Source of the DNA: Saccharothrix sp. ALI-22-I
Lineage (GTDB): Bacteria; Actinomycetota; Actinomycetes; Mycobacteriales; Pseudonocardiaceae
Direction: 5' to 3'
Assembly: GCF_001984175.1 (NCBI RefSeq)
Contig: NZ_MTQP01000063.1
Location: 248,001-312,000 of the forward strand
DNA: 64,000 nucleotides
The notes beneath the pieces were generated by a model, which saw only the letters and a program-made list of their open reading frames with translations, was not told the DNA's origin and did not search any database. Positions 22,428 to 64,000 of the stretch are shown one piece after another; the first letter of the stretch is position 1, and each line of letters starts with the position of its first letter. A program made the translations under genes and the position numbers.

Positions 22428-23191
22428 GCCGCCCGCCGACCGTGCACGGAGTAGACGACGGGCGAGGTGGCCAGGAACCGCTCATCGGCCATCACCTCGC
22501 GCACGGCGGCCAACTGCGCGTCGGTCATCCCCGCCGCGACCAGCTTGTCCCGCAACAGGTACGTGGTGTGCGCGAGCAGCCGCACGCCCGGCGATCCGGC
22601 CCGCCAAGGGTGCACGACCACCCGCGGGTCCACGTCGACCAACCCGGCCGCCGCCATCGCCCCGGCCACCTTCCGCCCCCACCCGACGTCCACGCCGAAC
22701 GCCTCGAACACGCTCTCCTTCACCGCCAAAAACGTCTCGTACAGCTCGGCGGCATGCCGATCGGGTGCGAGTAGCAGCGGGCTGTAGGAGTTGTCGAACT
22801 CGTCGATCTGCAACCACCCGCCCGGCTTCAGCGCGGCCACGAGCTTGCGCAGCACCGCGTCCCGCTCCGGCAGGTGCCGCAGCACCAGCCGCGCGTGGAC
22901 CAGGTCGAACCGGGACTCGGGCAGCGGGTCGCACACCACGTCGTGTCGCAGCACGGTCAGCCGCGGCGCGGGCCGCACGTGGTCCGGCTGCACGTCGGTG
23001 GCCAGCACGGTCGCGCCCCGCCCGGCCAACCAGTGCGCCACGCTGCCGCCGCCCGCGCCGACGTCCAGGCACCGCCAGCCGGGCCGGACACCGGTCTGCG
23101 CCAGTCGGGCGAACGTCAACGGGTCGTACGCGGCGGCCAGGCAGCGGTGCTGCTCGGCCACGTGCGCGCGGTCGAAGACGTACGTGGTCAT
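22424..23191 (-). CDS. SAM-dependent methyltransferase
   Basis: A 255-residue class I methyltransferase. The SAM-binding motif I is LDVGAGGGSVAHWL (about residues 43-56), motif II acidic residues are in VLATDVQPDH, and the post-motif RFDLVHARLVLRHL and LKPGGWLQIDEFD complete the core. The active-site lid is hydrophobic and gives no clue to substrate; O-, N- or C-methylation of the cluster product is possible. It is encoded between the CoA-transferase and ligase genes with 4-base overlaps on both sides, so it belongs firmly to this pathway. Confidence 0.87.
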   Translation of the reverse strand: MTTYVFDRAHVAEQHRCLAAAYDPLTFARLAQTGVRPGWRCLDVGAGGGSVAHWLAGRGATVLATDVQPDHVRPAPRLTVLRHDVVCDPLPESRFDLVHARLVLRHLPERDAVLRKLVAALKPGGWLQIDEFDNSYSPLLLAPDRHAAELYETFLAVKESVFEAFGVDVGWGRKVAGAMAAAGLVDVDPRVVVHPWRAGSPGVRLLAHTTYLLRDKLVAAGMTDAQLAAVREVMADERFLATSPVVYSVHGRRAA

Positions 23192-24741
23192 GTCCACCGC
23201 CCGGTGCCGTAGGTCTCGGCGCTGCCGACCAGCCGGGTGAGCAGATCCAGCCGGCGCACCTTGCCGGTGGCGGTGCGCGGCACGTCGTCCCAGGCCAGCA
23301 CGTGCGGGTCGGACATCGGCGGCAGATCGGACACCGCGTGCCGCCACACCATCGGGTCCAGCGGGCCGGACATCACCAGCACCGGGATCGGCGGCCGGCC
23401 CGGCGTGCCGAGCACCACGCACTCCACCACCTCGGGCAACCGGTCCTCGACCAGGTCCTCCACCTGCAGGCAGCTCAGCCCCGGCACCGCGTCCACCTCG
23501 CGGTCCAGCAGCCGCACCGCGCCGCCGCGGGTCAGCACGCCCAGGTCTCCGGTGTTCCACCACGGCCCGGTGTTCTTGGCCTGCCACCGGTCCTGTTCGC
23601 CGACGTACCCGACGCACCGGGCCTTCGTCCGCGCCAGCACCAGCCCGCTCTGCCCACGCGGCACCGGCGCGAACGTCGCCGGGTCCACCACCCGCAGCCG
23701 CGTCCGACCGGGCACGGGACGTCCCAGGTCACGGGCGTCGGGCGAACGGTCGAGCGCACGCCGGGTGAGGAACCGGAACGTCAGCGGACCGGTCTCGGTC
23801 TGCCCCCAGCCCTGCATCCACAGCGGCCGCTTGCGCTGGGACGCGTGCAGCATGGCCCGCATCGCCGGCGGGTGCATGGCGTCGTAGGTGCTGACGAACA
23901 GCCGCACGTCGCGGAACGGGTTGTCCGGCCGAGCCGCCAACGGCTGCCACCGCACGTAGGCCGACGGCAGCGCCTCCACCGTCGTCGGCGGGTGCTGCGC
24001 CAATACCGAAGACGCCGACGCCGGATCGCTGAGCAGCACGATCTTGCGCGGCGCGAGGCAGAACACGCTGGCCGTCCAGCAGAACGTGCGGCCGTGCGCG
24101 TACGAGCTGGCGTTGGCCACCACGTCGTCGCGGCGCACGCCGATCACCGGCCAGCGCACCGCCTCGAACCGGGCCAGCCGGTGCACGATCGTGCGGGTGG
24201 TGTGCACGACGAGCTTCGGCACACCGGTGGTGCCGGACGTGTGGTTGACGACCAGCGGGGCGTCGTTCTGCCGGCGTCGCGGCGCCGGCGCCCGTGAACC
24301 CCGCACGTCGTCCAACGTCAGCGCACCCGGCACGGGCGAACCGAGCGCCAACACCCGCCGCGCCAGACCGACCGGCGGCACCCGGTCGGTGACCAGCACC
24401 GCCGGATCGAGCCGCTTGAGCAGGATCTCCAGCACGTCGTCGGACAGGTGCCCGGACAGCAGCGCGGGCACCGCGCCGATCCGCACCGCCGCGCACGCGA
24501 GGAGGTCGTAGTCGTAGTGGTTGCGCTTCACCACCGCCACCCGGTCACCCCGACGCGCACCCGCCGCGTACAGCCAGCCTGACGCCTCGCGGACCAGCCC
24601 GGACAGCTGCGCCACCGTGTAGTCCACCCCTGACCCGGAATCGGACGGCGCGATGTCGAATGGCCGATCCAGGTGGACGGTGGTGTGCGGGTTGCGAGCC
24701 GCGACCTCGTCGAACAGCGTGCCCATGTCGTGCGGCCTCAT
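23188..24741 (-). CDS. Adenylate-forming ligase (acyl- or aryl-CoA-ligase-like)
   Basis: A 517-residue ligase with canonical motifs: NHTSGTTGVPKLVVHTTR (A3, about residue 165), GWGQTETGPL (A5), WWNTGDLGV (A7) and TATGKVRRLDLL (A10 Lys near the C-terminus). It should activate a carboxylic acid as an acyl-AMP, then pass it to CoA, a carrier or an amine. The substrate pocket is not readable by eye. It is the second of two adenylate-forming enzymes in this operon, and a free-standing carrier protein is not seen, so CoA or direct amide/ester formation is more likely. Both ends overlap neighbours (ATGA). Confidence 0.85.
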   Translation of the reverse strand: MRPHDMGTLFDEVAARNPHTTVHLDRPFDIAPSDSGSGVDYTVAQLSGLVREASGWLYAAGARRGDRVAVVKRNHYDYDLLACAAVRIGAVPALLSGHLSDDVLEILLKRLDPAVLVTDRVPPVGLARRVLALGSPVPGALTLDDVRGSRAPAPRRRQNDAPLVVNHTSGTTGVPKLVVHTTRTIVHRLARFEAVRWPVIGVRRDDVVANASSYAHGRTFCWTASVFCLAPRKIVLLSDPASASSVLAQHPPTTVEALPSAYVRWQPLAARPDNPFRDVRLFVSTYDAMHPPAMRAMLHASQRKRPLWMQGWGQTETGPLTFRFLTRRALDRSPDARDLGRPVPGRTRLRVVDPATFAPVPRGQSGLVLARTKARCVGYVGEQDRWQAKNTGPWWNTGDLGVLTRGGAVRLLDREVDAVPGLSCLQVEDLVEDRLPEVVECVVLGTPGRPPIPVLVMSGPLDPMVWRHAVSDLPPMSDPHVLAWDDVPRTATGKVRRLDLLTRLVGSAETYGTGRWT

Positions 24742-26063
24742 GCGTGCTGGCTCCTCGTGTTCGACGAGACGGTGGTGGACGACGGTCTGGTGCGCACCCG
24801 TGCGGCGGCACGGCGGCCGGACCGCACCGCGGCCTCGCTGTACGGGGCCAGGCTCACCCAGTCGCCGGCGTAGTCCACGACCCCGCCGATCCGGGACTCG
24901 AACCCGGCGCGCAACGCCAGGGCACGCGGCGTGGCCTCGGGCAGGCCGTGCCGGAACCGGTGCACGACCGATCCCGTCACCGCCGCCCGCAGTCCGGGCA
25001 CAAACCGCTCGGCTTCGTCGGCGAGCACCCCGACCACCTGGTCGTCCGGCGCGTCCAGCAGCGCCGGCGCCATGACCGGACTCGCGATCACCGTGACCAG
25101 TCCGCGGCCCCCGGGCGCCCGGTCGGGGTGTTTGAGGTGGTCGAACAGCACCACCGACACCGACGGGCTCTCCGACCGCGGCACGGCCAGCAGGTACACG
25201 CGCGACTCAGGGCGGTGGTCGAGCATCAGGTGCACCTTCACCATCGGGGTGAACGTGCACGCGTCCAGGAACGGCCGCTCGTGCTCCGGCGGGTTGGCGT
25301 AGACCTGCCGCGCGACCGGCGCGGGCACGGCCAGCACCACGGACCGGGCCCGCAACTCCGTGCCGTCACCGGTGATCCGCGCGAAACCCGGCCCCGCCAT
25401 GACCTCCCGCACCGGGAACGACGTCGTGACGTCCAGCCGCGCGGCGAGCGCACGCGCCACCAGGTCCATGCCGTCGTCGTACGTGCGCCAGGCGGTGGAC
25501 GGGCCGATCGCGCCGAGCAGACCCAGGAACGGCGCGGCCGCCGAGTGCTCCGGCCGCCACCCGAAGAACCCGGACACCACCGGCTGGCACAGGTATTCCA
25601 GCAGGTCACGGTGGTACGGCGCGGCGAACTCCGTGACGGTGGCCGTGCCCAGCCGAGACGCCTCGGGGTGCGCGGCGTCGAATCGACCGCGCGTGGCGCG
25701 CATGAAGTCCGCGCGCGCCCGAACCGACATGCCGGCGCCGGTGATCAGGCCCAACGGGTGCGCCAGCCCTCGCCGCACCCGGCCGCCGCGCCACACGCCC
25801 AGCTGCCGCCCGATCCTCGGCACCGCGTCGTCGAGTTCCAACCGCCGCAACAACTCCCACGTGTGCGGGTAGCCGCGGGTGGAGATCTGCTCGGCGCCGG
25901 TGTCGACCACGAACCCGGAGATCCGCCGCGTCGCCATCCGCCCGCCGACGTGGTCCGCCGCCTCGAACACCCGCACCTGGCGACCCGCCCGCGCCAACTC
26001 GTGCGCGGCGGCCAGCCCGGCGATCCCCGCGCCGATCACGGCCACGTCGACGTCCGCGCCCAT
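24738..26063 (-). CDS. FAD-dependent oxidoreductase, amine-oxidase / protoporphyrinogen-oxidase fold
   Basis: A 441-residue flavoprotein. The dinucleotide motif is VAVIGAGIAGLAAAHELARAG (residues 7-27, quoted in part), followed by VFEAADHVGGRM. A C-terminal FAD contact with GGVVDYAGDWVSLAPYSEAAVRSG is present near residue 400 (key residues YAGDW and SGRRAA). Relatives oxidise C-N or C-C bonds: amine oxidases, phytoene desaturases, protoporphyrinogen oxidase. Beside a UbiA gene it may act on a prenylated or alicyclic intermediate. The ATG shares a base with the UbiA stop (TGATG), so translation is coupled. The basic Arg/Ser tail is unremarkable. Confidence 0.83.
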   Translation of the reverse strand: MGADVDVAVIGAGIAGLAAAHELARAGRQVRVFEAADHVGGRMATRRISGFVVDTGAEQISTRGYPHTWELLRRLELDDAVPRIGRQLGVWRGGRVRRGLAHPLGLITGAGMSVRARADFMRATRGRFDAAHPEASRLGTATVTEFAAPYHRDLLEYLCQPVVSGFFGWRPEHSAAAPFLGLLGAIGPSTAWRTYDDGMDLVARALAARLDVTTSFPVREVMAGPGFARITGDGTELRARSVVLAVPAPVARQVYANPPEHERPFLDACTFTPMVKVHLMLDHRPESRVYLLAVPRSESPSVSVVLFDHLKHPDRAPGGRGLVTVIASPVMAPALLDAPDDQVVGVLADEAERFVPGLRAAVTGSVVHRFRHGLPEATPRALALRAGFESRIGGVVDYAGDWVSLAPYSEAAVRSGRRAAARVRTRPSSTTVSSNTRSQHA

Positions 26064-53460: not shown

Positions 53461-53676
53461 ATGAGTGACGAGAAGACCAATTACCCGGAATTCCTGGTCG
53501 TGCTGAACGACGAGGAGCAGTACTCGGTCTGGTTCGCCGACCGCGACCTCCCGCCGGGATGGCGGGCCGAAGGGACAAGGGGTACCAGGGAAGAGTGCCT
53601 GGCCCACATTGACCGGGTGTGGACGGACATGCGCCCGCGCAGCGTCCGCGAGCACGTCGCCGCGCACCGCGACTGA
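53461..53676 (+). CDS. MbtH-like NRPS chaperone
   Basis: A 71-residue MbtH-family protein. FLVVLNDEEQYSVWFADRDLPPGWRAEG (about residues 11-38, key residues NDEEQYSVW, P and GW) and HIDRVWTDMRPRSVREHV near the C-terminus are the hallmark motifs. MbtH proteins bind and activate NRPS adenylation domains; here the partner is probably one or both A domains encoded next. One change is notable: the usual Trp-Pro of LWP is WFA. GGGGCAGGAG precedes the ATG. It is the first gene of the NRPS operon. Confidence 0.95.
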   Translation: MSDEKTNYPEFLVVLNDEEQYSVWFADRDLPPGWRAEGTRGTREECLAHIDRVWTDMRPRSVREHVAAHRD

Positions 53677-53817
53677 CGCTCCACCCGGCACCTCGACTCG
53701 CGCATTACCGCACGCCGCGCAAAGGGGCACCTACCGCTGCCCGGAAAAGGTCTCCGGAATTCCCGGTGACCGGTTCGGTCGTGCGCGCCCGAAACACATT
53801 TCGCCGGGGAGGATTTG

Positions 53818-56800
53818 GTGCACACGGATTCGCGGCTCGCGCCCGCTCTGCCGTTGCAGAGCGGAATGATCGCGGCCGGGTTGCGGGACCCGTCGGCCGG
53901 GACGGATGTCATCCAGTGCGTCCAGCACTGGCCGCACGGCCTGGACACCGCCACCTATCTGGCGGCGTGGCGGGCGGCGGTCGAACGGCACCCGCTGCTG
54001 CGGACCCGGTTCACCTGGCGCGCGGACGGCGGCATGGACCAGTGGTCCGGACCCGCCGAGGACGTCCCGGTGCTGGTGGACGATTCGGTGACGGACCTGC
54101 CGGCGTTCCTGGCGGCCGACCGGCGGGCCGGCGTGGACCCGGTGTCCGCGCCGCCGCTGCGGGTGGTGTCGCTGCCCGGTGACGTGGTGGTGGCGACCTT
54201 CCACCACGCGATCCTCGACGGCCGGTCGCTGGCCATGCTGCTGGCCGAGATCGACGACGACTACGCGGCCCGACTCGCGGGTGGCACACCGGACTTCGCG
54301 CCGCGCCCGGACTTCACCGACTACGCCCGCTGGTACGACGCCCGGATCGCGCCGGACCACCCCGAGGCGCTGGCCGACGAACGGTTCTGGGCCGCCGAAC
54401 TGGCCGGGCTGCCCGAGCCCGGTCCGCTGCCGCTGGAGCACGCCGGGCCGGACACGCCGGTCATGGCCACCGCGGTGCTCGACCTGTCCGACACCGAGAC
54501 CGAGGCCGTGCGGGCGTTGGCCGCGCGGGCGGGCGTCACGGTGAACACGGTGGTGCTGGCCGCGTGGGGTCTGGTGTTGACCACGCACGCGCACGCCGAC
54601 GAGGCCGTGTTCGGGGTGACCAGGGCGGCCCGGCACGGCACCGTCGAGGGCGCGCAGGACATGCTGGGGCTGCTGCTGGCGACCGTGCCGCTGCGGCTGC
54701 CGGTTCAGTGGGACGCGTCGGTGGCCGACTGGCTGCGGTCGGTCCGGGAACGGTCGGTGCGGGCGCGCGACCACCAGCTGTGCCCGCTGCCGGTGATCCA
54801 ACGCGCGGCCGGTCACGACGTGCCGTTGATGCGGAGCCTGGTGCTGTTCGAGCACCGCGAACTGGGGACGGTGCTGTCCGCTCGGCCGTCCGCGCCGGCG
54901 GGCAGACAGGTGCGCATCCTGCGCACCCCCGTCTACGCCATGACGTTGTACGCCTTCGCCGAGCCGCGCCTGAGCTTCCGGCTGATCCACGACACCGGCC
55001 GGTTCCCGGACTGGGCGCCGGACGCCCTGTTGACGCAGGTGCGGGACCTGCTCGCGGGCATGGCCGAGGCGCCGGACCGCCCGGTGCGGGAGCTGACCGG
55101 GCCGCGTGAGCTCGTGCGGGTGCTGGAGAAGTGGAACGACACCGCGGTCGACTACCCGGCGGACGCGACCGTGCCGGACCTGTTCGCCGAGCAGGTGCGG
55201 CTGCGGCCGGACGCGGACGCGGTCTTCGACGGTGAGCGGTGGCTGAGCTACGCGGAGTTGGACGCGCGGTCGAACCGGTTGGCGCACGTGCTGGTGGCGC
55301 GGGGCGCGCAGGTGGACCGTCCGGTGGCGCTCTCGCTGCCGCGTGGGGCGGACTTCGTGACCGCGATGCTGGCCGTGCTCAAGACCGGTGCCGCGTACCT
55401 GCCGCTGGACCCGGACAACCCGGCGGCACGGGACGCGGCGGCGTTGCGCGAGTCCGGCACGCCGCTGGTGGTGGCCGACCGGCCGCGCGCGCTGCCGGAC
55501 GGGGTCACCTCGGTGGTGCTGTCCGAAGTGGACCTTTCGCCGGAATCATCGGAATCGCCCGTATTTCCGGTGACGGCGGTGCATCCGCTGAGCGTGGCGT
55601 ACGTGAACTACACGTCGGGGTCGACCGGCAGGCCGAAGGGTGTGGCCGTGCCGCACCGGGGTGTGGTGCGGCTGGTGACGCGGCCGACGTTCGGGCGCTT
55701 CGGGCCGGGGCAGACGTTCCTGCACCTGTCCGCGACCGCGTTCGACCTGACCACGCTGGAGGTGTGGGGCGGGCTGCTGACCGGTGGCCGGGTGGTGGCC
55801 GCGCCGTCCGGTCCGCCCGATCCGGCGGTGCTGGGCGAGCTGCTGCGGACGCACCGGGTGAGCGTGTTGTGGTTGACCGCTGGGCTGTTCCACCAGCTGG
55901 ACCCGGCGCTGCTGGCCGACGTGGAGCAACTGCTGGCCGGTGGTGACGTGCTGGCCCCGGACGCGGTGCGGGCGGCGCTCAAGGCGCGTGGCGGGAAGCC
56001 GGTGGTCAACGGGTACGGGCCGACGGAGAACACCACGTTCACCACGTGCCACGTGGTGGGGTCGGCCGAGGACGTGGGCGCGACCGTGCCGATCGGCACG
56101 CCGATCCAGCGGACCACGGTGTACGTGCTGGACGAGTCGATGCGGCCGGTGCCGGTGGGTGTGCCGGGTGAGCTGTACACCGGCGGTGACGGGCTGGCGC
56201 GCGGGTATTGGGGCGCGCCCGCGTTGACCGCGTCGAAGTTCGTGCCCGACCCGTTCGTGTCCGATTCGTTCGGGGCCGCGCCCGGTGGGCGGCTGTACCG
56301 GACGGGTGACCTGGCCCGGTGGCGGCCGGACGGGGTGCTGGAGTTCCTGGGTCGCGCGGACCGGCAGGTCAAGGTGCGCGGGTTCCTGGTGGAGCCGGCC
56401 GAGGTCGAGGCCGTGTTGCGGGAGCACCCGGCGGTCGGCGCGGCGGCCGTGCTGCCGTTCGGCGACGGCGACGCGAGGCACCTGGTGGCCTACGTCGTGC
56501 CGACCGGCTCGTTGGACATCGAGGACGTGCGCGCGCACGTCGCGGAACGGCTGCCCGCCTTCCTCTGCCCGGCGCGGTACGTACCGCTGCCGGAGCTGCC
56601 GCTCAACGGCAGCGGCAAGGTGGACCGGGCGGCACTGCGCTCGGTCCGTGCCCCGGGCGCGCGGGGCACGGACCGGACCCAACCCGCGACCGCCACGCAA
56701 CGGCGGTTGGCGAAGCTGTGGGAGAACCTGCTGGACGCGCCGGAGGTGTTCGCCGAGGACGATTTCTTCGCGGTGGGCGGCAACTCGCTGCTCGCGGTGC

Positions 56801-59574
56801 GGTTGGCGTTCCGGGTGCAGGAGGAGTTCGGGGTCGAGATGCCGGTCGCCGAACTGCACCGGGCCCGGACGCTGGCGGCGTGCGCGGCGGTGGTGGACGC
56901 GTCGCTGAGCACCTCGTCGGGTGCCGTGTCGGTGGGGATCACGCGGCGGGACCGGTCGGCGTACGTGGTGCCCACGCAGCGCACGTCGGTGCGGCCGGTG
57001 GCGGATCACCTGGTGCTGCCGGGTGGGGACGGTGACTGGGCGGCGTGGCGGTGCGTCGAACTGCGCGGGACGGGCTTCGGCATCGAGCCGTTGCTGGCGG
57101 TGGCGAGCCCGGACGCGGCACGTGCGGCCGAGGCGGTGCTGGCGGCCGAGGACGCGGCGAGCGAGGCGCGGTGGACGGCGTTCCAGGTGTTGCGCGAGGT
57201 CGAGGACCGGGCTCAGGGCGAGCAGCGGTCCGCGCTGCGGCGGATCGGGCGGCGGGTCCGCAAGGGACGGTTCACCGAAGCACGCGCCGCACTGGCCGCC
57301 GTGCCGACAACAGGGACGACAGGGACGACAGCAGTGGACGCGGCGTTGGCCGTGGCTGCCGAGGCCGCCGCACGGCACGACGCGCTGCTCGCCGACTACA
57401 CGGCTTGTTTCGAGGCGGGGCGCAAGGCCGCCGCCGACGTGTTGCGGGTGGTCAGCGGGGACGCGAAGTTCCGCGAAGCCGTTGCCTGGCAGAACCCGAG
57501 CGCCCTCCGGACCGCCGTCGCTTCGCTGCACAAGGCGCTCTCCGGCGACCGGCCCTCCTCCCGCAACGTCGATTACCGCCGTTGGGAGCACACGGTCGTC
57601 AGCTACCTCCAGCGCTACTGCGCCAAGAACGACACGATCGGTTTCTTCGGGCCGGTCGGCTGGGCCCGGGTCGAGGACGACGCGCCCGCCGCGATCACCG
57701 CGAAACCCGGCCCCGACCTGATCGACTCGCGGACCGTCTACCTGGAGAACTGGGCGGTCCAACAACTGGCCGAGGCGTTGACCACGGACGCCGTGCGGCC
57801 GTGGGCGGTGCCCCGGCGGATGCCGTTCGTGGACGTCGTCGGCGACACGATGCACGTCCCGATGACCGATCCGGTGCGCCTGCCCGCGTTGGACGCCGCC
57901 GTGCTCGCCGCGTGCGACGGACTAACCCGAGCGGACGCGATCGCCGGCGACCTCGACCAACCGGTCCAGGACGTCTTGGCCGCTCTCGAACGGCTGCGGC
58001 AGGCCAAGCGGATCGCCTGGTCGTTGGAGGTGCCGCCGGAGGCGCTGGTGCCGGAGACGGCGTTGCGCGCGCAGATCGCGGCCATCGGGGACCCCGACGC
58101 ACGAGCCGAAGCCGAAAAGGCACTGACCGAGGTCGAGCAGGGGCGGGACCGGGTGGCCGCCGCCGTGGGCGATCCGGACCGGTTGGTGCACGCGATCGAC
58201 GACTTGCACGAGAAGTTCACCGCCATCACCGGCACGGCGGCCGTGCGTCGACCCGGCCTGTTCTACGCCGGCCGCACGGTGGTGCACGAGGAGTGCCGAC
58301 GCGATCTCGACGTCACCCTCTCCCCCGGTCTGATGGAAACGCTGTGGTCGCCGTTGTCGCTGGTGCTGGAGGCGGCACGCTGGTTCACCTCCGCGGGCGC
58401 GGCGCTGTACGGGCGCGCGTTGCGGGAGGTGTACCGGGAGCGGGTCGCGGCCACCGGTTCGGACCGGGTGCGGTTGGCGGACTTCTGGTTGTGGGCCAAC
58501 GACACCATCTTCCGGCTCGACGAACGGCTGATCGACCGGCTCGTCCGGGCGTTGCAGGACCGCTGGGCCAAGGCCCTGGGACCCCAACCGGACGGGCGCG
58601 ATGTCCACTACCGAGTGGGTGATGTGCGGGACGCCGTGCTCAAGGCGTTCGCCGCGCCGCGACCGGGGTGGCGTGGCGCGGTGCAGCACAGCCCGGACGT
58701 GCTGATCGCGGCCCAGGACGAGGACGCGATCCGGGCCGGCGACTACCGGTGGGTGCTGGGCGAGGTGCACCCCGGCGTGAACACCATGCGGTCGGCGTTG
58801 TTCGTGTCCCAGCACCCCGATCCTGGCCAACTGCGCGCGGCGATGAGCCACGACATGGCCGGGCCGAGGATCGTGCTGGCCACCACCCGCGAGCAGGGCG
58901 GCACGCCGCAACGGCTCGCCGACGCGCTGGTGTCACCGGACGACCTGAAGATCGTGTTCGGCCACGACGCCTGCGGCCCGGGGTTGCGCGACGCGGTGCC
59001 GGTCGGCGCGTGCGAGGTGACCGAGAGCGGCGGGCGGCTGGTGGCGCGCAGCCGGGACGGCCGGGTGGACGTCGACCTGGTCGAGCTGCTGAACGAGCAG
59101 ATCATGGCGCAGTTGGTGCAGCACTTCCGGCTGCTGCCCGCGGGCGAGCACACGCCCCGGGTCAGCCTGGACCGGCTGGTCGTGGCCAGGGAGGGCTGGC
59201 GATTGCCGACCGCGCGTTCGGCGTTCGCGTTCGCCCCCGACGAAGGGACCCGGTTCCTGCGGGCACAGGCCTGGCGCCGTGAGCACGGCATGCCGAGGTT
59301 CGTGTTCGTGAAGAGCCCGGTGGAGCACAAGCCGTTCTACGTGGATCTGGAGAGCCAGCCGTCGGTCGAGCTGTTCGCGCACGCGGTGCGCGCGCTGGAC
59401 CGGGAGAAGCCGGACGCGCCGATGGGCGTGGGCGAGATGCTGCCCGGCCCGGACCAGCTGTGGTTGACCGACGCCGCGGGCGCCCGGCACACGGCGGAGT
59501 TCCGGGTCGTCGCGGTCGACCGGAGGGGCTGGCCGGACAAGGGCGACCGGGGTTGGGGAGGGGGACAGCGGTGA
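53818..59574 (+). CDS. NRPS module (C-A-T) fused to a LanB-type (lantibiotic dehydratase) domain
   Basis: A 1918-residue protein. Residues about 1-430 form a condensation domain with FHHAILDG (about residue 130). About 440-940 form an adenylation domain with YTSGSTGRPKGV (about residue 598) and NGYGPTENTTFT. Reading against GrsA gives the provisional code D-L-L-W-L-G-G-T-F-K, which I cannot assign. About 950-1025 form a carrier domain with the phosphopantetheine Ser in VGGNSLLAV. Residues about 1060-1918 are a LanB N-terminal-type domain: AVAWQNPSALRTAV, RYCAKNDTIGFFGPVGW (about residue 1270) and MPRFVFVKSPVEHKPFYVDL (about residue 1824). No LanB elimination domain is seen. LanB glutamylation domains use aminoacyl-tRNA, so the fusion may link tRNA-dependent chemistry to a carrier-bound peptide. 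GTG at 53818 follows GGAGG by 5 bases; TTG 53815 is possible. Confidence 0.9.
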   Translation: MHTDSRLAPALPLQSGMIAAGLRDPSAGTDVIQCVQHWPHGLDTATYLAAWRAAVERHPLLRTRFTWRADGGMDQWSGPAEDVPVLVDDSVTDLPAFLAADRRAGVDPVSAPPLRVVSLPGDVVVATFHHAILDGRSLAMLLAEIDDDYAARLAGGTPDFAPRPDFTDYARWYDARIAPDHPEALADERFWAAELAGLPEPGPLPLEHAGPDTPVMATAVLDLSDTETEAVRALAARAGVTVNTVVLAAWGLVLTTHAHADEAVFGVTRAARHGTVEGAQDMLGLLLATVPLRLPVQWDASVADWLRSVRERSVRARDHQLCPLPVIQRAAGHDVPLMRSLVLFEHRELGTVLSARPSAPAGRQVRILRTPVYAMTLYAFAEPRLSFRLIHDTGRFPDWAPDALLTQVRDLLAGMAEAPDRPVRELTGPRELVRVLEKWNDTAVDYPADATVPDLFAEQVRLRPDADAVFDGERWLSYAELDARSNRLAHVLVARGAQVDRPVALSLPRGADFVTAMLAVLKTGAAYLPLDPDNPAARDAAALRESGTPLVVADRPRALPDGVTSVVLSEVDLSPESSESPVFPVTAVHPLSVAYVNYTSGSTGRPKGVAVPHRGVVRLVTRPTFGRFGPGQTFLHLSATAFDLTTLEVWGGLLTGGRVVAAPSGPPDPAVLGELLRTHRVSVLWLTAGLFHQLDPALLADVEQLLAGGDVLAPDAVRAALKARGGKPVVNGYGPTENTTFTTCHVVGSAEDVGATVPIGTPIQRTTVYVLDESMRPVPVGVPGELYTGGDGLARGYWGAPALTASKFVPDPFVSDSFGAAPGGRLYRTGDLARWRPDGVLEFLGRADRQVKVRGFLVEPAEVEAVLREHPAVGAAAVLPFGDGDARHLVAYVVPTGSLDIEDVRAHVAERLPAFLCPARYVPLPELPLNGSGKVDRAALRSVRAPGARGTDRTQPATATQRRLAKLWENLLDAPEVFAEDDFFAVGGNSLLAVRLAFRVQEEFGVEMPVAELHRARTLAACAAVVDASLSTSSGAVSVGITRRDRSAYVVPTQRTSVRPVADHLVLPGGDGDWAAWRCVELRGTGFGIEPLLAVASPDAARAAEAVLAAEDAASEARWTAFQVLREVEDRAQGEQRSALRRIGRRVRKGRFTEARAALAAVPTTGTTGTTAVDAALAVAAEAAARHDALLADYTACFEAGRKAAADVLRVVSGDAKFREAVAWQNPSALRTAVASLHKALSGDRPSSRNVDYRRWEHTVVSYLQRYCAKNDTIGFFGPVGWARVEDDAPAAITAKPGPDLIDSRTVYLENWAVQQLAEALTTDAVRPWAVPRRMPFVDVVGDTMHVPMTDPVRLPALDAAVLAACDGLTRADAIAGDLDQPVQDVLAALERLRQAKRIAWSLEVPPEALVPETALRAQIAAIGDPDARAEAEKALTEVEQGRDRVAAAVGDPDRLVHAIDDLHEKFTAITGTAAVRRPGLFYAGRTVVHEECRRDLDVTLSPGLMETLWSPLSLVLEAARWFTSAGAALYGRALREVYRERVAATGSDRVRLADFWLWANDTIFRLDERLIDRLVRALQDRWAKALGPQPDGRDVHYRVGDVRDAVLKAFAAPRPGWRGAVQHSPDVLIAAQDEDAIRAGDYRWVLGEVHPGVNTMRSALFVSQHPDPGQLRAAMSHDMAGPRIVLATTREQGGTPQRLADALVSPDDLKIVFGHDACGPGLRDAVPVGACEVTESGGRLVARSRDGRVDVDLVELLNEQIMAQLVQHFRLLPAGEHTPRVSLDRLVVAREGWRLPTARSAFAFAPDEGTRFLRAQAWRREHGMPRFVFVKSPVEHKPFYVDLESQPSVELFAHAVRALDREKPDAPMGVGEMLPGPDQLWLTDAAGARHTAEFRVVAVDRRGWPDKGDRGWGGGQR

Positions 59575-62500
59575 GCGCGGTGATACCCGAAGGACGGGCG
59601 GACGAGGTGTTCCGGTTCCCGGCTTCGTCCGGGCAGCGCAGGTTGTGGCTGGTCGACCAGCTGCTGCCCGCGAGCCCGGTCTACAACATCGGCTGGCGGG
59701 TCGGCGTCGACGGCCCGCTGGACGCGGACGCGTTGCAGGCGGCGTTGAACGCGCTGGTGGCGCGGCACGAGGCGTTGCGGACGCGGTTCGCCGCGGAGGA
59801 CGGCGTGCCGGTGCAGGTGGTGTCCGCGACGCTGACCGTGCCGTTGGTGCGGTTGTCGTCGGCGGACGTGGACGCGGCGGTGCGCGAGGAGGTGGGTCGG
59901 CCGTTCGTGCTGCACCACGGGCCGCTGTTACGCGCCGGTCTGATCGAGGTCACGTCTCAAGAGCACGTGTTGGTCCTGGTGCTGCACCACACGATCGCCG
60001 ACGGCTGGTCGTGCGCGGTGCTGTTCGACGAGCTGGCCCGGCTGTACGCCACCGAGGCCACGGGCGAACCGCACAACCTGCCCGACCTGCCCGTGCAGTA
60101 CCCGGACTACGCGGTGTGGCAACGGGAACAGGCCGACGGTGGAGCCTTCGCCGCCGACGCGGAGTTCTGGCGTGAGGCGCTGCACGGCGTGCCGACCGTG
60201 CTGCCGTTGCCGACCGACAAGACCCGACCGGCGACGCCCACCGGGCACGGCGCCGAGCTGCGGGCGGAACTGGGCGTCGACAACGGGTCGTTCGCCCGGC
60301 TGCTGGCCGTGTTCCAGTGCGTGCTGCACCGGGTGACCGGGCAGGCGGACTTCCTGGTGGCGACGCCCGTCGCGGCCCGCACCCGGCCGGAGACCGAGGG
60401 CCTGGTCGGTTTCGTGGCCAACACCCTGCCGCTGCGCGCGAAGTTCACCCCGGACACGACGTTCGGCGAGGTCGTCACGGCGACCGAGCACGCCACCGTG
60501 GCCGCGCTCGTCCACCAGGACCTGCCGTTCGAGCAGCTGGTGGACATCGTCTCGCCACAGCGGACACTGGCCCACGCGCCGCTGGTGCAGGTGATGTTCG
60601 CCGTCGAGCCGGTGCCGCCGGCGCGCAAGGCCGGTCCGATCACGTTGCGACCCGAGGCGGTGGCCAACGGCGGGGCGAAGTTCGACCTGTCGCTGACCGT
60701 CGAGCAGGCGGGCGAACGGTGGTTCGCGCGCTGGCAGTACGACTCCGAGCTGTTCACGCCGGAGACGATCGCCGCGCTGCACGCGGTGTTCGCCGCCGCC
60801 GTGCACGCCTCCCCCGCCGACCGGGTCGCCGAACTGCTGCTGACCGACGACTCACCGCAGGAACCGGCCGTCGAGGTGCCCGCGGAGACGGCCGCCGACC
60901 TGGTGTTCGCCGCGCTGGCCGAGCACCCGGACGCGGTCGCCGTCGAGGGCGCGTTGACGTGCGGTGAACTGGACCGTGCGGCCAACCGGCTCGCTCACGT
61001 GCTGCTCGCCGCGGGCGCGCGGCCGGATCAGCCGGTGGCGTTGTGCCTGGACCGCGGCGCACAGATGGTCGTCGGCATCCTCGCCGCGTGGCGCGTGGGC
61101 GCGGGTTACCTGCCGCTGGACCCGTCGTGGCCCGCCGCACGGCTCACCGCCATGGCCACCGGCTCCGACGTGCCGGTGCTCGTCACCGACGGCGCGTCGC
61201 GCGAGGTCACCGGGCCGTTGACCGGCCCGTGGACCGAGGTGGACCTGGACACCGCCGACCTCGACGCCCAACCGGACACTCCGCCACCGGCGACGAAGCA
61301 ACACCCGGAGATGCTGGCCTACGTCATCCACACCTCCGGGTCCACCGGCAAACCCAAGGGCGTCCGGTGCACCCAGGGCGGTCTCGCCGCGTTACTGCGC
61401 GCGATGGGCGAGATGATGGAGCTGACGCCCGCGGACCGGCTCGCCTCCATCACCACGCCTGCGTTCGATGTGTCCACAGTGGAAATGCTCGCTCCTCTCA
61501 TCAGCGGCGCGACGCTCGTGGTGATCCCGGCGGATGACGTGGCGGACGGCGCGCTGTTGCGGGCACGCATCGCCGATACCGAAGCGACCGTCGTACAGGG
61601 CGGTCCGGCGAGCTGGCGGATGGTCGTCGCGGCCGGTGGTGTGCCGGCGGGCGTGCGGCTGCGGATCAGCGGCGGCGAGGCGATGACCCGCGACCTGGCC
61701 GACGACCTCCAGACCGACGGCGCGACCCTGATCGACGGCTACGGCCCCACCGAGACCACGGTGTACTCGGCGGCCGGTGTCGTATCGCACGGGCCGGACC
61801 CGGTGCGGCTCGGGCCGGCGGTCAAGGGCACCTCGCTGTACGTGCTGGACCCGCTCATGCGCCCGGTGCCGCCTGGTGTGATCGGCGAGTTGCACATCGG
61901 CGGCGCGGGCGTGGCGCGCGGCTACCACGGTCTGCCCGGGATGACGGCGGACCGGTTCCGCCCCGACCCGTTCGGTTCGGCGGGCGGTCGGCTCTACGCG
62001 TCCGGCGACCTGGTCCGCCGGCACGCCGACGGGACGCTGGAGTTCCTGGGCCGCACCGATCGGCAGCTCAAGGTGCGCGGCTACCGGATCGAGCCGGGCG
62101 AGATCGAAGCCGTGCTCCGCGCTCACCCGGACGTGGCGCACGCGGTCGTGATCGCCTGGTCCGCGCACGCCGCCGACGTGCGGCTGGTCGCGTACGCGGT
62201 GCCCGCCGACCCTGGCCTGCACGAGGACGAGTTGCGCCGTCGGGTGCGACCGCACCTGGCCGCGCGCCTGCCCGACTACATGCTCCCGGCTGCGGTCGTC
62301 GTGCTGCCCGAACTGCCGCGCACCGGCACCGGCAAGATCGACCGGGACGCGTTGCCCGATCCGGTGTGGACGACCGACGACGTCGAGCGGGTCGAACCGC
62401 GTGACGACAACGAACGGCGGCTGGCGCAGATCTGGCGCGAGGTGCTGAGCATGCCCGTGGACGCGCCGCTGGGCGTGCACGACAACTTCTTCGCCCTGGG

Positions 62501-62738
62501 CGGCCACTCGTTGACCGCGACCCAGATGCTGGCCCGTGTCCGGGTAGCGCTGGACGTGGACCTGCCGTTGGCGACGCTGTTCGCCGCGCCCACCATCGCC
62601 GAGCTGTGCTCGAACCTGGGCGGCGGCACGGCGGGCACCCGCGGTCCGGTGCCGCTGCTCGATCAGCTGGACGAGCTGTCCGACGCGGAAATCGACCGCC
62701 TGCTCGGCACCTTGATCGACGACGAGGACGAGACATGA
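59571..62738 (+). CDS. NRPS module (C-A-T)
   Basis: A 1055-residue module. The condensation domain (about residues 15-440) has LHHTIADGW (about residue 138) and reads like an LCL domain: RLWLVDQLLPASPVYNI. The adenylation domain (about 450-940) has HTSGSTGKPKGV (about residue 586) and DGYGPTETTVYSA; a provisional GrsA-based code is D-V-V-Q-I-G-G-V-Y-K, which I cannot assign. The carrier domain has FFALGGHSLTAT (about residue 976). A short docking-like acidic tail follows (LDELSDAEIDRLLGTLIDDED), and there is no thioesterase. The GTG at 59571 overlaps the upstream stop (GTGA). It must hand its product on to a later protein, not visible here. Confidence 0.93.
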   Translation: MSAVIPEGRADEVFRFPASSGQRRLWLVDQLLPASPVYNIGWRVGVDGPLDADALQAALNALVARHEALRTRFAAEDGVPVQVVSATLTVPLVRLSSADVDAAVREEVGRPFVLHHGPLLRAGLIEVTSQEHVLVLVLHHTIADGWSCAVLFDELARLYATEATGEPHNLPDLPVQYPDYAVWQREQADGGAFAADAEFWREALHGVPTVLPLPTDKTRPATPTGHGAELRAELGVDNGSFARLLAVFQCVLHRVTGQADFLVATPVAARTRPETEGLVGFVANTLPLRAKFTPDTTFGEVVTATEHATVAALVHQDLPFEQLVDIVSPQRTLAHAPLVQVMFAVEPVPPARKAGPITLRPEAVANGGAKFDLSLTVEQAGERWFARWQYDSELFTPETIAALHAVFAAAVHASPADRVAELLLTDDSPQEPAVEVPAETAADLVFAALAEHPDAVAVEGALTCGELDRAANRLAHVLLAAGARPDQPVALCLDRGAQMVVGILAAWRVGAGYLPLDPSWPAARLTAMATGSDVPVLVTDGASREVTGPLTGPWTEVDLDTADLDAQPDTPPPATKQHPEMLAYVIHTSGSTGKPKGVRCTQGGLAALLRAMGEMMELTPADRLASITTPAFDVSTVEMLAPLISGATLVVIPADDVADGALLRARIADTEATVVQGGPASWRMVVAAGGVPAGVRLRISGGEAMTRDLADDLQTDGATLIDGYGPTETTVYSAAGVVSHGPDPVRLGPAVKGTSLYVLDPLMRPVPPGVIGELHIGGAGVARGYHGLPGMTADRFRPDPFGSAGGRLYASGDLVRRHADGTLEFLGRTDRQLKVRGYRIEPGEIEAVLRAHPDVAHAVVIAWSAHAADVRLVAYAVPADPGLHEDELRRRVRPHLAARLPDYMLPAAVVVLPELPRTGTGKIDRDALPDPVWTTDDVERVEPRDDNERRLAQIWREVLSMPVDAPLGVHDNFFALGGHSLTATQMLARVRVALDVDLPLATLFAAPTIAELCSNLGGGTAGTRGPVPLLDQLDELSDAEIDRLLGTLIDDEDET

Positions 62739-64000
62739 GCAGGGAAGCAGCCAGGAACCACGAAACGATTGTTGTCGGCGCGGGGCTCGCCGGCTCGCTG
62801 ACGGCTGTCTACCTGGCCCGGCGAGGGTTCCGGGTGCGGGTGTTGGAGCGGCGGGGCGATCCTCGGGCGCCGGGAGCGAAGGAAGAGGGCCGTTCGATCA
62901 ACCTGGGTCTCTCGCAACGCGGCATCGTCGCGTTGCGGGAAGTCGGCTTGCTGGAGCGGTTGGCGCCGCTGACCGTGCCGATGCGCGGCCGGGTCGTGCA
63001 CCTGCCCGACGGCACGCTCCGCTTCCAGCCCTACGGCCTGGCGGAAGACCAGATCCTGCACTCCATCCTGCGGCACGACCTCAACGTCGCGCTGGTGGAC
63101 GAGGCCGAACGGCTCGGCGTCGAGTTCTCCTGGGGCCAACGGGTCACCGCCGTGGACCGCACCAAACCCGCGGTCACCACCGACGACCAGGCCGTGCACA
63201 CCGCCGACCTCGTCGTCGGCGCGGACGGCGCGTTCTCCGCCGTGCGCACGCACCTGGGCCGCGGCCTGCGGATGGACCTGCACCAGGAGTTCCTGGAGTG
63301 GGGCTACAAGGAGCTGCTGATCCCGGTCGGCGACGACGGCGAGCCACGCACCGAACTGCGCGCGCTGCACGTGTGGCCGGGTGACGAGGGCCTGATCGTG
63401 GCGCACCCCAACGCGGACGGCTCGCTCACCGCGACCGTGTTCCTGCCGTTCGAGGGCGAACACGGGTTCGCCGGGCTCACCGAGGCCGGGCGGGTGCGGG
63501 AGTTCTTCGCCCGCCGCTTCCCCGACACGCTCACCCTCATCCCGGACGTGGTCGAGCAGTTCCTCGCGCACCCGCCGGCCAGTCTGGTCACCGTGCGCAC
63601 CGCGCCGTGGCACGTCACCACCGACGACGGACGCGGGGTCGTGCTGATCGGGGACGCCGCGCACGCCGTGTACCCGTTCTTCGGGCAGGGCATGAACGCC
63701 GCGTTCGAGGACTGTTCGGTGCTCAACCGGTGCCTGGCCACGCACCCGCACGACCTGCCGCAGGCGTTGGCCGCGTTCGAGGACTCCCGCCGGCCGCACA
63801 CGGACGTGCTCGCGGAGCTGTCCAAGCGCAACTTCGTGGAGCTGCGCGACAAGCTGCGCTCACCGCTGTTCACCGTCCGCAAGAAGGTGGACCTGGCGCT
63901 GCACCGGCTGCTCCCGAACGCGTGGGTGCCGCTCTACACCCTGATCGCGCACACCACGGTCCCCTACGGCGAGGCGTTGGCGCGGGCCCGGCGCCAGGAC
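62735..64000 (+). CDS. kmo: Kynurenine 3-monooxygenase, 5' part
   Basis: At least 422 residues, cut by the right edge; full-length enzymes are about 450-480. VVGAGLAGSLTAVYLARRG (about residues 13-31, quoted in part) and GRSINLGLSQRGIVAL are typical of the FAD site of kynurenine 3-monooxygenase. FLEWGYKELLIPV, LHVWPGDEGLIVAHPN and LIGDAAHAVYPFFGQGMNAAFEDC follow in the correct order. It hydroxylates kynurenine to 3-hydroxykynurenine with NADPH and O2, which suggests that the NRPS uses a 3-hydroxykynurenine- or 3-hydroxyanthranilate-type unit. Its ATG overlaps the NRPS stop. Confidence 0.92.
   Translation, partial: MSREAARNHETIVVGAGLAGSLTAVYLARRGFRVRVLERRGDPRAPGAKEEGRSINLGLSQRGIVALREVGLLERLAPLTVPMRGRVVHLPDGTLRFQPYGLAEDQILHSILRHDLNVALVDEAERLGVEFSWGQRVTAVDRTKPAVTTDDQAVHTADLVVGADGAFSAVRTHLGRGLRMDLHQEFLEWGYKELLIPVGDDGEPRTELRALHVWPGDEGLIVAHPNADGSLTATVFLPFEGEHGFAGLTEAGRVREFFARRFPDTLTLIPDVVEQFLAHPPASLVTVRTAPWHVTTDDGRGVVLIGDAAHAVYPFFGQGMNAAFEDCSVLNRCLATHPHDLPQALAAFEDSRRPHTDVLAELSKRNFVELRDKLRSPLFTVRKKVDLALHRLLPNAWVPLYTLIAHTTVPYGEALARARRQD

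Follow-up and report, generated by a model that had tools for sequence, protein, structure and literature searches.

A nonribosomal peptide synthetase module fused to a PEARL-like LanB N-type domain in Saccharothrix and other actinobacteria

Architecture of the locus

The window, by which we mean the whole 64,000-nucleotide stretch of Saccharothrix sp. ALI-22-I DNA that was analyzed, carries a nonribosomal peptide synthetase (NRPS) gene, NRPS1, that joins a condensation-adenylation-carrier (C-A-T) module to a LanB N-type domain. The relevant genes and domains are the following, with Pfam matches given where they define a feature.

53461 to 53676, + strand: MbtH-like protein gene (PF03621, 2.4e-19)
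53839 to 55098, + strand: C1 condensation domain with the motif FHHAILDGR (PF00668, residues 8-427, 2.9e-43)
55183 to 56619, + strand: A1 adenylation domain (AMP-binding, PF00501, residues 456-798, 1.1e-76; AMP-binding_C, PF13193, residues 862-934)
56704 to 56889, + strand: T1 carrier domain with a GGNS serine (PP-binding, PF00550, residues 963-1024, 3e-11)
56917 to 56991, + strand: residues 1034-1058, which join T1 to the LanB-type domain and probably form a flexible linker (pLDDT < 50 at model residues 80-104)
57025 to 59571, + strand: PEARL-like LanB N-type domain (Lant_dehydr_N, PF04738, residues 1215-1499, 2e-21; AlphaFold2 model; Foldseek matches to TbtB, MibB and NisB)
58696 to 58770, + strand: putative ATP-site residues Asp1627, Glu1649 and His1651 (in 43 of 43 fused sequences; absent from the genome's own full-length LanB)
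59497 to 59505, + strand: C-terminal Glu1894-x-Arg1896 motif (in 43 of 43 fused sequences; Glu-x-Ala in the control LanB)
59571 to 62738, + strand: NRPS2, C-A-T, whose start overlaps the stop of NRPS1 (Pfam, translation and overlap)
62735 to 64000, + strand: FAD monooxygenase gene (PF01494 and other matches), which runs to 64084, past the window

The NRPS1 open frame comprises 1918 codons, from a GTG start at 53818 to a stop at 59574; it is also listed as 53815 to 59574 because a TTG sits one codon 5′ of the GTG. GGGGAGGA ends 4 nt before this GTG, and the NRPS gene that follows starts at a GTG that overlaps the stop of NRPS1 in the sequence GTGA. A sequence-only reading of this DNA had described a C-A-T module that continues in frame into LanB N-type sequence (residues 1060-1918) and contains no elimination domain. 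The frame and the Pfam matches bear out this description: the layout is C-A-T-LanB(N), with the NRPS domains N-terminal and the PF04738 match (76.3 bits against a cut-off of 28, in two stretches) inside the expected part, and the protein has no match to the elimination domain PF14028. Across the genome, a single PF14028 match was obtained at an E value of 0.001, in a full-length LanB encoded on contig C62. Both halves of the gene have a high GC3 (0.93-0.97 for C, A and T; 0.92 for the LanB part). The A1 pocket, read by eye at what we take to be the code positions, looks aliphatic; this is a lead only, by which a side-chain carboxylate is unlikely.

Beyond position 64000, the same contig carries genes for a DUF6875 protein, a C-A-T protein, an MFS transporter and a C-A-T-reductase protein, in that order. 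Judging by gene order, NRPS1 would be the first of four modules, the last of which ends in a reductase domain. No second PF04738 gene is present on the contig, no tRNA gene was predicted in the window by ARAGORN, and Rfam reports nothing between 48000 and 64000.

The nearest NCBIfam model for the FAD monooxygenase is VioC, with a score below its cut-off. An assignment of the next gene to YqcI/YcgG was rejected because its Pfam match is DUF6875. Since DUF6875 proteins have been described as heme proteins that oxidize L-Trp (PMC13307353, which cites a preprint), an oxidized Trp residue in the product is a reasonable guess. The pairing of this FAD monooxygenase gene with a DUF6875 gene (L014:2089-2763) points to Trp oxidation in the product.

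Distribution of the fusion

We identified 43 distinct fused T-LanB sequences, the window included, in several actinobacterial genera. Among the named fused relatives are members of the genera Saccharothrix, Actinophytocola, Salinispora and Micromonospora, with those of Saccharothrix nearest to the window, as well as metagenome-assembled genomes of Streptosporangiaceae and Pseudonocardiales. Because the T and LanB parts are in frame in all 43, an assembly or annotation join was rejected as an explanation. This count leaves out five repeat records of single contigs (L128/L049, L175/L047, L179/L050, L186/L043 and L124/L051), the short-flank loci L016-L032, and L168 and L182, which are long frames with a LanB-type domain and no similarity to C, A or T domains. 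Three of the fused sequences (L045, L048 and L125) are ended by the contig end. A further one of the 43, from Saccharothrix luteola (L037:6376-12730), has a frame break that separates A from T but leaves T and the LanB part joined.

Within the window's genus, 17 of the 25 listed genomes have an orthologue of the LanB part with at least 70% identity, and 16 of these orthologues sit in a single open frame that is 1892 codons long or longer. The LanB part is matched at 1e-20 or better in 60 of 297 genomes of the family, and a LanB relative, fused or not, is found at 1e-80 or better in 132 of 350 Micromonospora-family genomes. A class-wide sample yielded 10 of 394 genomes at 1e-60, own genome counted, with a query that took in T and with few candidates scored.

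The LanB-type domain stands behind a T domain in every one of the 43 sequences, and the GGxS serine of that carrier is likewise present in all of them (for L051, the first of two T domains was used). The other 42 fused domains are 43-90% identical to the window's LanB-type domain. Although PF04738 was not reported for the Curea-type L051 at an E value of 1e-4 or for L126 at 0.001, their domains are nonetheless 43-44% identical to that of the window. Examination of the surrounding DNA revealed an MbtH-like gene near 39 of the 43 fusions. Saccharothrix, Actinophytocola, Salinispora pacifica CNR114 and Micromonospora echinofusca share the gene order with the FAD monooxygenase and DUF6875 genes; neither gene was seen beside the fusion in L047-L051.

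Predicted fold and active-site residues

An AlphaFold2 model of T plus LanB, based on 32 window and locus sequences, has a mean pLDDT of 89.6 and predicts a complete LanB-type domain from about residue 1070. The join between the two parts (residues 1034-1058) is of low confidence, and the only other places below a pLDDT of 50 are a 3-residue dip and the last 12 residues. Foldseek ranks TbtB first (PDB 6ec8 and 6ec7; 1.8e-24 and 3.4e-24), followed by MibB, GodF, MadB and NisB. The structure prediction proposed in the sequence-only reading returns a LanB-type fold, with its suggested comparator NisB among the matches. When the LanB part was used as a single sequence, a PDB search found no relative; a profile of 32 sequences found TbtB only (9.8e-14). 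All 32 members of the corresponding alignment (A1) match PF04738 at an E value of 0.01.

Seven putative active-site residues are invariant among the 43 fused sequences: Asp1627, Glu1649, His1651, Arg1791, Phe1830, Glu1894 and Arg1896. An eighth, Arg1083, is present in 42 (one gap). At the seven places, the canonical LanB of the same genome has Ser, Pro, Arg, Pro, Glu, Glu and Ala, although this control, which was trimmed to the N domain, is poorly aligned for the most part (family profile E value of 0.8). Its letter at Asp1627 depends on the alignment (His in one, Ser in two), and Arg1791 and Phe1830, which TbtB has in common with the fused family, are missing from it as well.

Several of these residues appear to correspond to the ATP site of PEARLs. 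The Asp and Arg of that site (Asp542 and Arg803 in TglB) have been reported as exclusive to PEARLs and absent in split LanB proteins (PMC11117183), and the ATP-contacting residues of BhaBCTrp are named in PMC11962472. Our matching to TglB, BhaB and SnaE uses published residue numbers and spacing. The D542-E564 spacing of TglB (22) and its E801-x-R803 motif equal those of D1627-E1649 (22) and E1894-x-R1896, whereas the Asp558-Glu575 spacing of BhaBCTrp is 17 rather than the 22 of the fused family. The adenine-site Arg and Phe align with TbtB in the profile alignment, which does not reliably cover the PEARL-only places. One mild counterpoint concerns tRNA binding. Arg208 of BhaBCTrp binds the CCA end of tRNA (PMC11962472), and all 43 fused sequences have Lys1270 at this place, as judged by spacing and LanB alignment. 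We consider it mild because TbtB also has Lys there.

In a broader alignment of 57 family members, these residues are kept except that L055 ends before Arg1791, L058 has Leu for Glu1894, two Kitasatospora plasmid proteins have Asp and Arg for Glu1649, and one of these two has Tyr for Phe1830.

On these sequence features, the LanB-type domain looks PEARL-like rather than like a dehydratase. PF14028, which marks class I lantibiotic dehydratases in cis or in a neighboring partner, is found in neither place here. Glutamylation with dehydration was accordingly rated low, given that PEARL-only residues are present and no elimination partner is nearby. The sequence-only reading had invoked LanB proteins and PEARLs together; this comparison is partly supported, with the ATP-site residues making PEARLs the better of the two.

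Condensation domain types and origin of the fusion

The C1 motif of the window, FHHAILDGR, differs from the ureido (Curea) signature EHHXXHDG. The C domain could be read in 39 fused sequences, that of the window among them; four carry the ureido signature and the remaining 35 are of the F/LHH(A/V)xx type. The four (EHHFVHDGW in L051; EHHFIHDGW in L170, L171 and L172) share the layout A-T-C(EHHxxHDG)-A-T-LanB in one protein, and in L051 Pfam finds two domains each of the A and T types.

When 61 LanB-type domains were placed in a tree, the 21 fused domains among them formed one clade (support 0.998). In a larger tree with 93 tips, all 43 fused domains share a clade (0.981) with seven stand-alone proteins; L055 and L057 were kept out of the trees. 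Given these seven, a single fusion with later loss and several fusions are both possible, and the tether is not always needed. Five of the seven (G1197, G1162, G1210, G1156 and G1179) are encoded no more than 20 kb from a fused gene, the one of G961 has no fused gene within 20 kb, and G1027 has no listed fused gene. Outside the clade, the nearest relatives are the stand-alone LanB proteins of L052 and L053. Beside each is a gene with an FHHSVLDGR C domain (C-A-T in L053, by Pfam) that is sister to the fused C1 clade (0.994).

The L051 C domain falls outside a clade (0.992) that unites the C1 domains of 12 fused sequences, and the four ureido-type proteins group together inside the fused LanB clade. 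From this nesting, it appears that the C domain was probably exchanged in the ureido-type lineage while the LanB part was retained. A ureido-forming C1 in the window, considered with regard to the fact that no A-T precedes C1, was rejected because the signature is absent and the C1 clade excludes L051.

Searches of the PDB and of plasmids with C1 returned general NRPS relatives only. SnaE was not found when an EHHLVHDG DNA pattern was searched in 397 genomes; the pattern occurs in four of them, and the 3 kb surrounding each occurrence contain no LanB-type match. One of these four is the window's own genome, which encodes EHHLVHDG on another contig (G000:C45:118730-118752, L192).

Related clusters

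In orthologous clusters of the Micromonospora family, the fused gene is accompanied, at a distance of no more than 20 kb, by a second LanB-type gene that stands alone. Examples are Salinispora pacifica CNR114 (G1210:C28:4969-7197 and 22809-25136) and G1197 (fused L187; stand-alone L169:3895-6549), in which the second gene lies downstream of the MFS gene. These pathways may include two LanB-type steps.

Other arrangements involve stand-alone proteins. On two Streptomyces plasmids (L088:14773-22334 and L105:11818-19418), a pair of stand-alone LanB-type genes flanks genes for an A domain, a PLP enzyme and a free carrier, and these clusters adjoin MbtH, PPTase and peptidase E genes. Another plasmid (L089:12999-22680) has genes annotated as a cobalamin-dependent protein and methylaspartate mutase, followed by LanB-type, carrier, AMP-binding, ATP-grasp and C-domain genes; here a LanB-type step might act on carrier-bound 3-methylaspartate. 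A Kitasatospora plasmid (L102:9818-26085) carries three "lantibiotic dehydratase" genes among similar-sized hypotheticals, with six matching places, and two of the three LanB-type proteins lack the usual Glu1649 equivalent. In Salinispora pacifica (L053:3709-15001), a stand-alone LanB-type gene sits between a KS-AT-T PKS gene and the C-A-T gene mentioned above, the AMP-binding match of which covers only profile positions 2-126 of 384.

Discussion

The fusion is real and conserved and, judging from its sequence, the LanB-type domain looks functional. We propose, with moderate confidence, that the C-terminal domain of NRPS1 is an in-cis PEARL-type ligase that most likely extends the free carboxylate of an intermediate held on T1. 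The domain is tethered to T1 and therefore most likely acts on the intermediate that T1 holds. We infer a free carboxylate as the acceptor because the ATP-site residues are kept, whereas a thioester would need no ATP. The PEARL-type domain would use ATP to phosphorylate this carboxylate, the amine of an aminoacyl-tRNA would attack the phosphorylated group, and the tRNA would be hydrolyzed off afterwards to leave one amino acid more. Through such a reaction, the fusion might join carrier-bound and tRNA-derived aminoacyl groups, as the sequence-only reading had suggested. The intermediate would stay bound to T1 through its thioester, which NRPS2 could use to extend it forward in the normal way, and the PEARL domain would lengthen its opposite end.

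The closest known system is that of SnaE and SnaA from the threopeptin cluster of Stackebrandtia nassauensis (PMC11212132), which likewise combines a LanB N-type protein with an NRPS cluster and an MbtH-like gene. The substrate of SnaE is a ureido-peptide: ureido formation leaves a free carboxylate, which SnaE extends in the direction opposite to that of the line, and the authors left undecided whether it does so on the carrier or after release (PMC11212132). Coding alongside NRPS genes, as expected of a SnaE-type amidation enzyme, is also seen in the window. However, SnaE is a separate protein, whereas the window's domain is the C-terminal part of C-A-T-LanB; unlike SnaA, the window's C domain lacks the ureido signature. 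With C1 reading FHHAILDGR, nothing in the window points to the route by which SnaA leads to a free carboxylate. Perhaps C1 instead brings in an acyl group with a second carboxylate.

The four ureido-signature relatives have the SnaA layout joined to a LanB-type domain. We read them as SnaA plus a SnaE-like domain in one chain, an arrangement that favors the on-carrier version of the reaction. Because a ureido-signature C domain replaces C1 in the fused clade and the ligase is not lost, C1 might be viewed as a starter C domain. A bolder and more tentative extension of our proposal is a bidirectional line built on one carrier, in which thioester extension would proceed forward, the in-cis ATP- and tRNA-dependent ligase would work at the opposite end, and a C1 of the type FHHA(I/L)LDGR would act as a starter that leaves a free carboxylate.

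The domain can also be set beside better-characterized proteins. By published residue numbers, the domain shares with TglB, BhaB and AmmB the Asp, Glu-x-His and Glu-x-Arg of the ATP site, and it also shares the adenine-site Arg and Phe and the lack of an elimination domain (PMC11962472, PMC11117183). These PEARLs extend ribosomal scaffold peptides as described there, whereas the window's domain is tethered to an NRPS carrier; BhaBCTrp further differs by having the tRNA-binding Arg208 in place of Lys. TbtB, a split LanB glutamylation protein, is the best fold match (PDB 6ec7 and 6ec8) and has the adenine-site Arg and Phe, but by published statement it lacks the PEARL Asp and Arg (PMC11117183). 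Split LanB enzymes work with a separate elimination protein (PMC11962472). The full-length class I enzymes NisB and MibB share the glutamylation-domain fold but have the PF14028 elimination domain that the window's protein lacks.

We consider it unlikely, though worth weighing, that the ligase acts off-line on a released or later intermediate and that the fusion merely keeps the activities together. The acceptor of SnaE could be either T-bound or free (PMC11212132), stand-alone LanB relatives are common, seven of them fall inside the fused clade, and a line that ends in a reductase could release an aldehyde as substrate. Yet the domain follows a T in all 43 fused sequences, and in four relatives that T is the one expected to hold the ureido intermediate.

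LanB enzymes move aminoacyl groups to Ser and Thr, and PacB carries out a similar transfer in pacidamycin. An ATP-independent transfer from tRNA to a side chain or amine of the T1-bound residue would suit a domain with the same fold as TbtB and NisB and the adenine-site Arg and Phe common to TbtB. It is nevertheless improbable, since residues reported only for ATP-dependent PEARLs are invariant in the fused family and there is no elimination partner for dehydration besides the C62 LanB.

Chain release, in which the amine of aminoacyl-tRNA attacks the T1 thioester and the chain leaves the line, is very improbable despite the position of the domain after T, the usual place of release domains. 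Another C-A-T gene overlaps the end of NRPS1, the line closes with a reductase domain, and the ATP-site residues, which an attack on a thioester would not require, are invariant. A catalytically dead docking or structural element, as are some NRPS C-type domains (the X domains, which are non-catalytic recruiters; PMC11212132), is the least credible of these readings given that the seven active-site residues are unchanged in 43 of 43 sequences while the other 42 domains are only 43-90% identical to the window's.

The sequence-only reading also stated that no fusion of this order was known to have been characterized. This stands insofar as no characterized NRPS-LanB fusion was found in the literature searched, which lay outside preprints and most subscription journals. 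However, LanB proteins fused to thiolation domains are already mentioned in PMC11212132, and so fusions of this kind had been noticed. In the available text of a 2026 review (PMC12945691), the words "fused" and "NRPS" are absent, and "nonribosomal peptide synthetase" occurs three times. The new points are the tether to a carrier and the non-ureido C domain, within the NRPS-associated kind of PEARL.

With a natural T-LanB fusion, a single protein suffices to test the question left open for SnaE, namely whether the tRNA-derived residue is added before or after the chain leaves the carrier, and both steps are placed on one chain in the four A-T-C(EHHxxHDG)-A-T-LanB relatives. If our proposal is correct, then the prediction of NRPS products must allow for a residue not encoded by any A domain, and the tether would be a route for adding tRNA-borne amino acids to NRPS intermediates.
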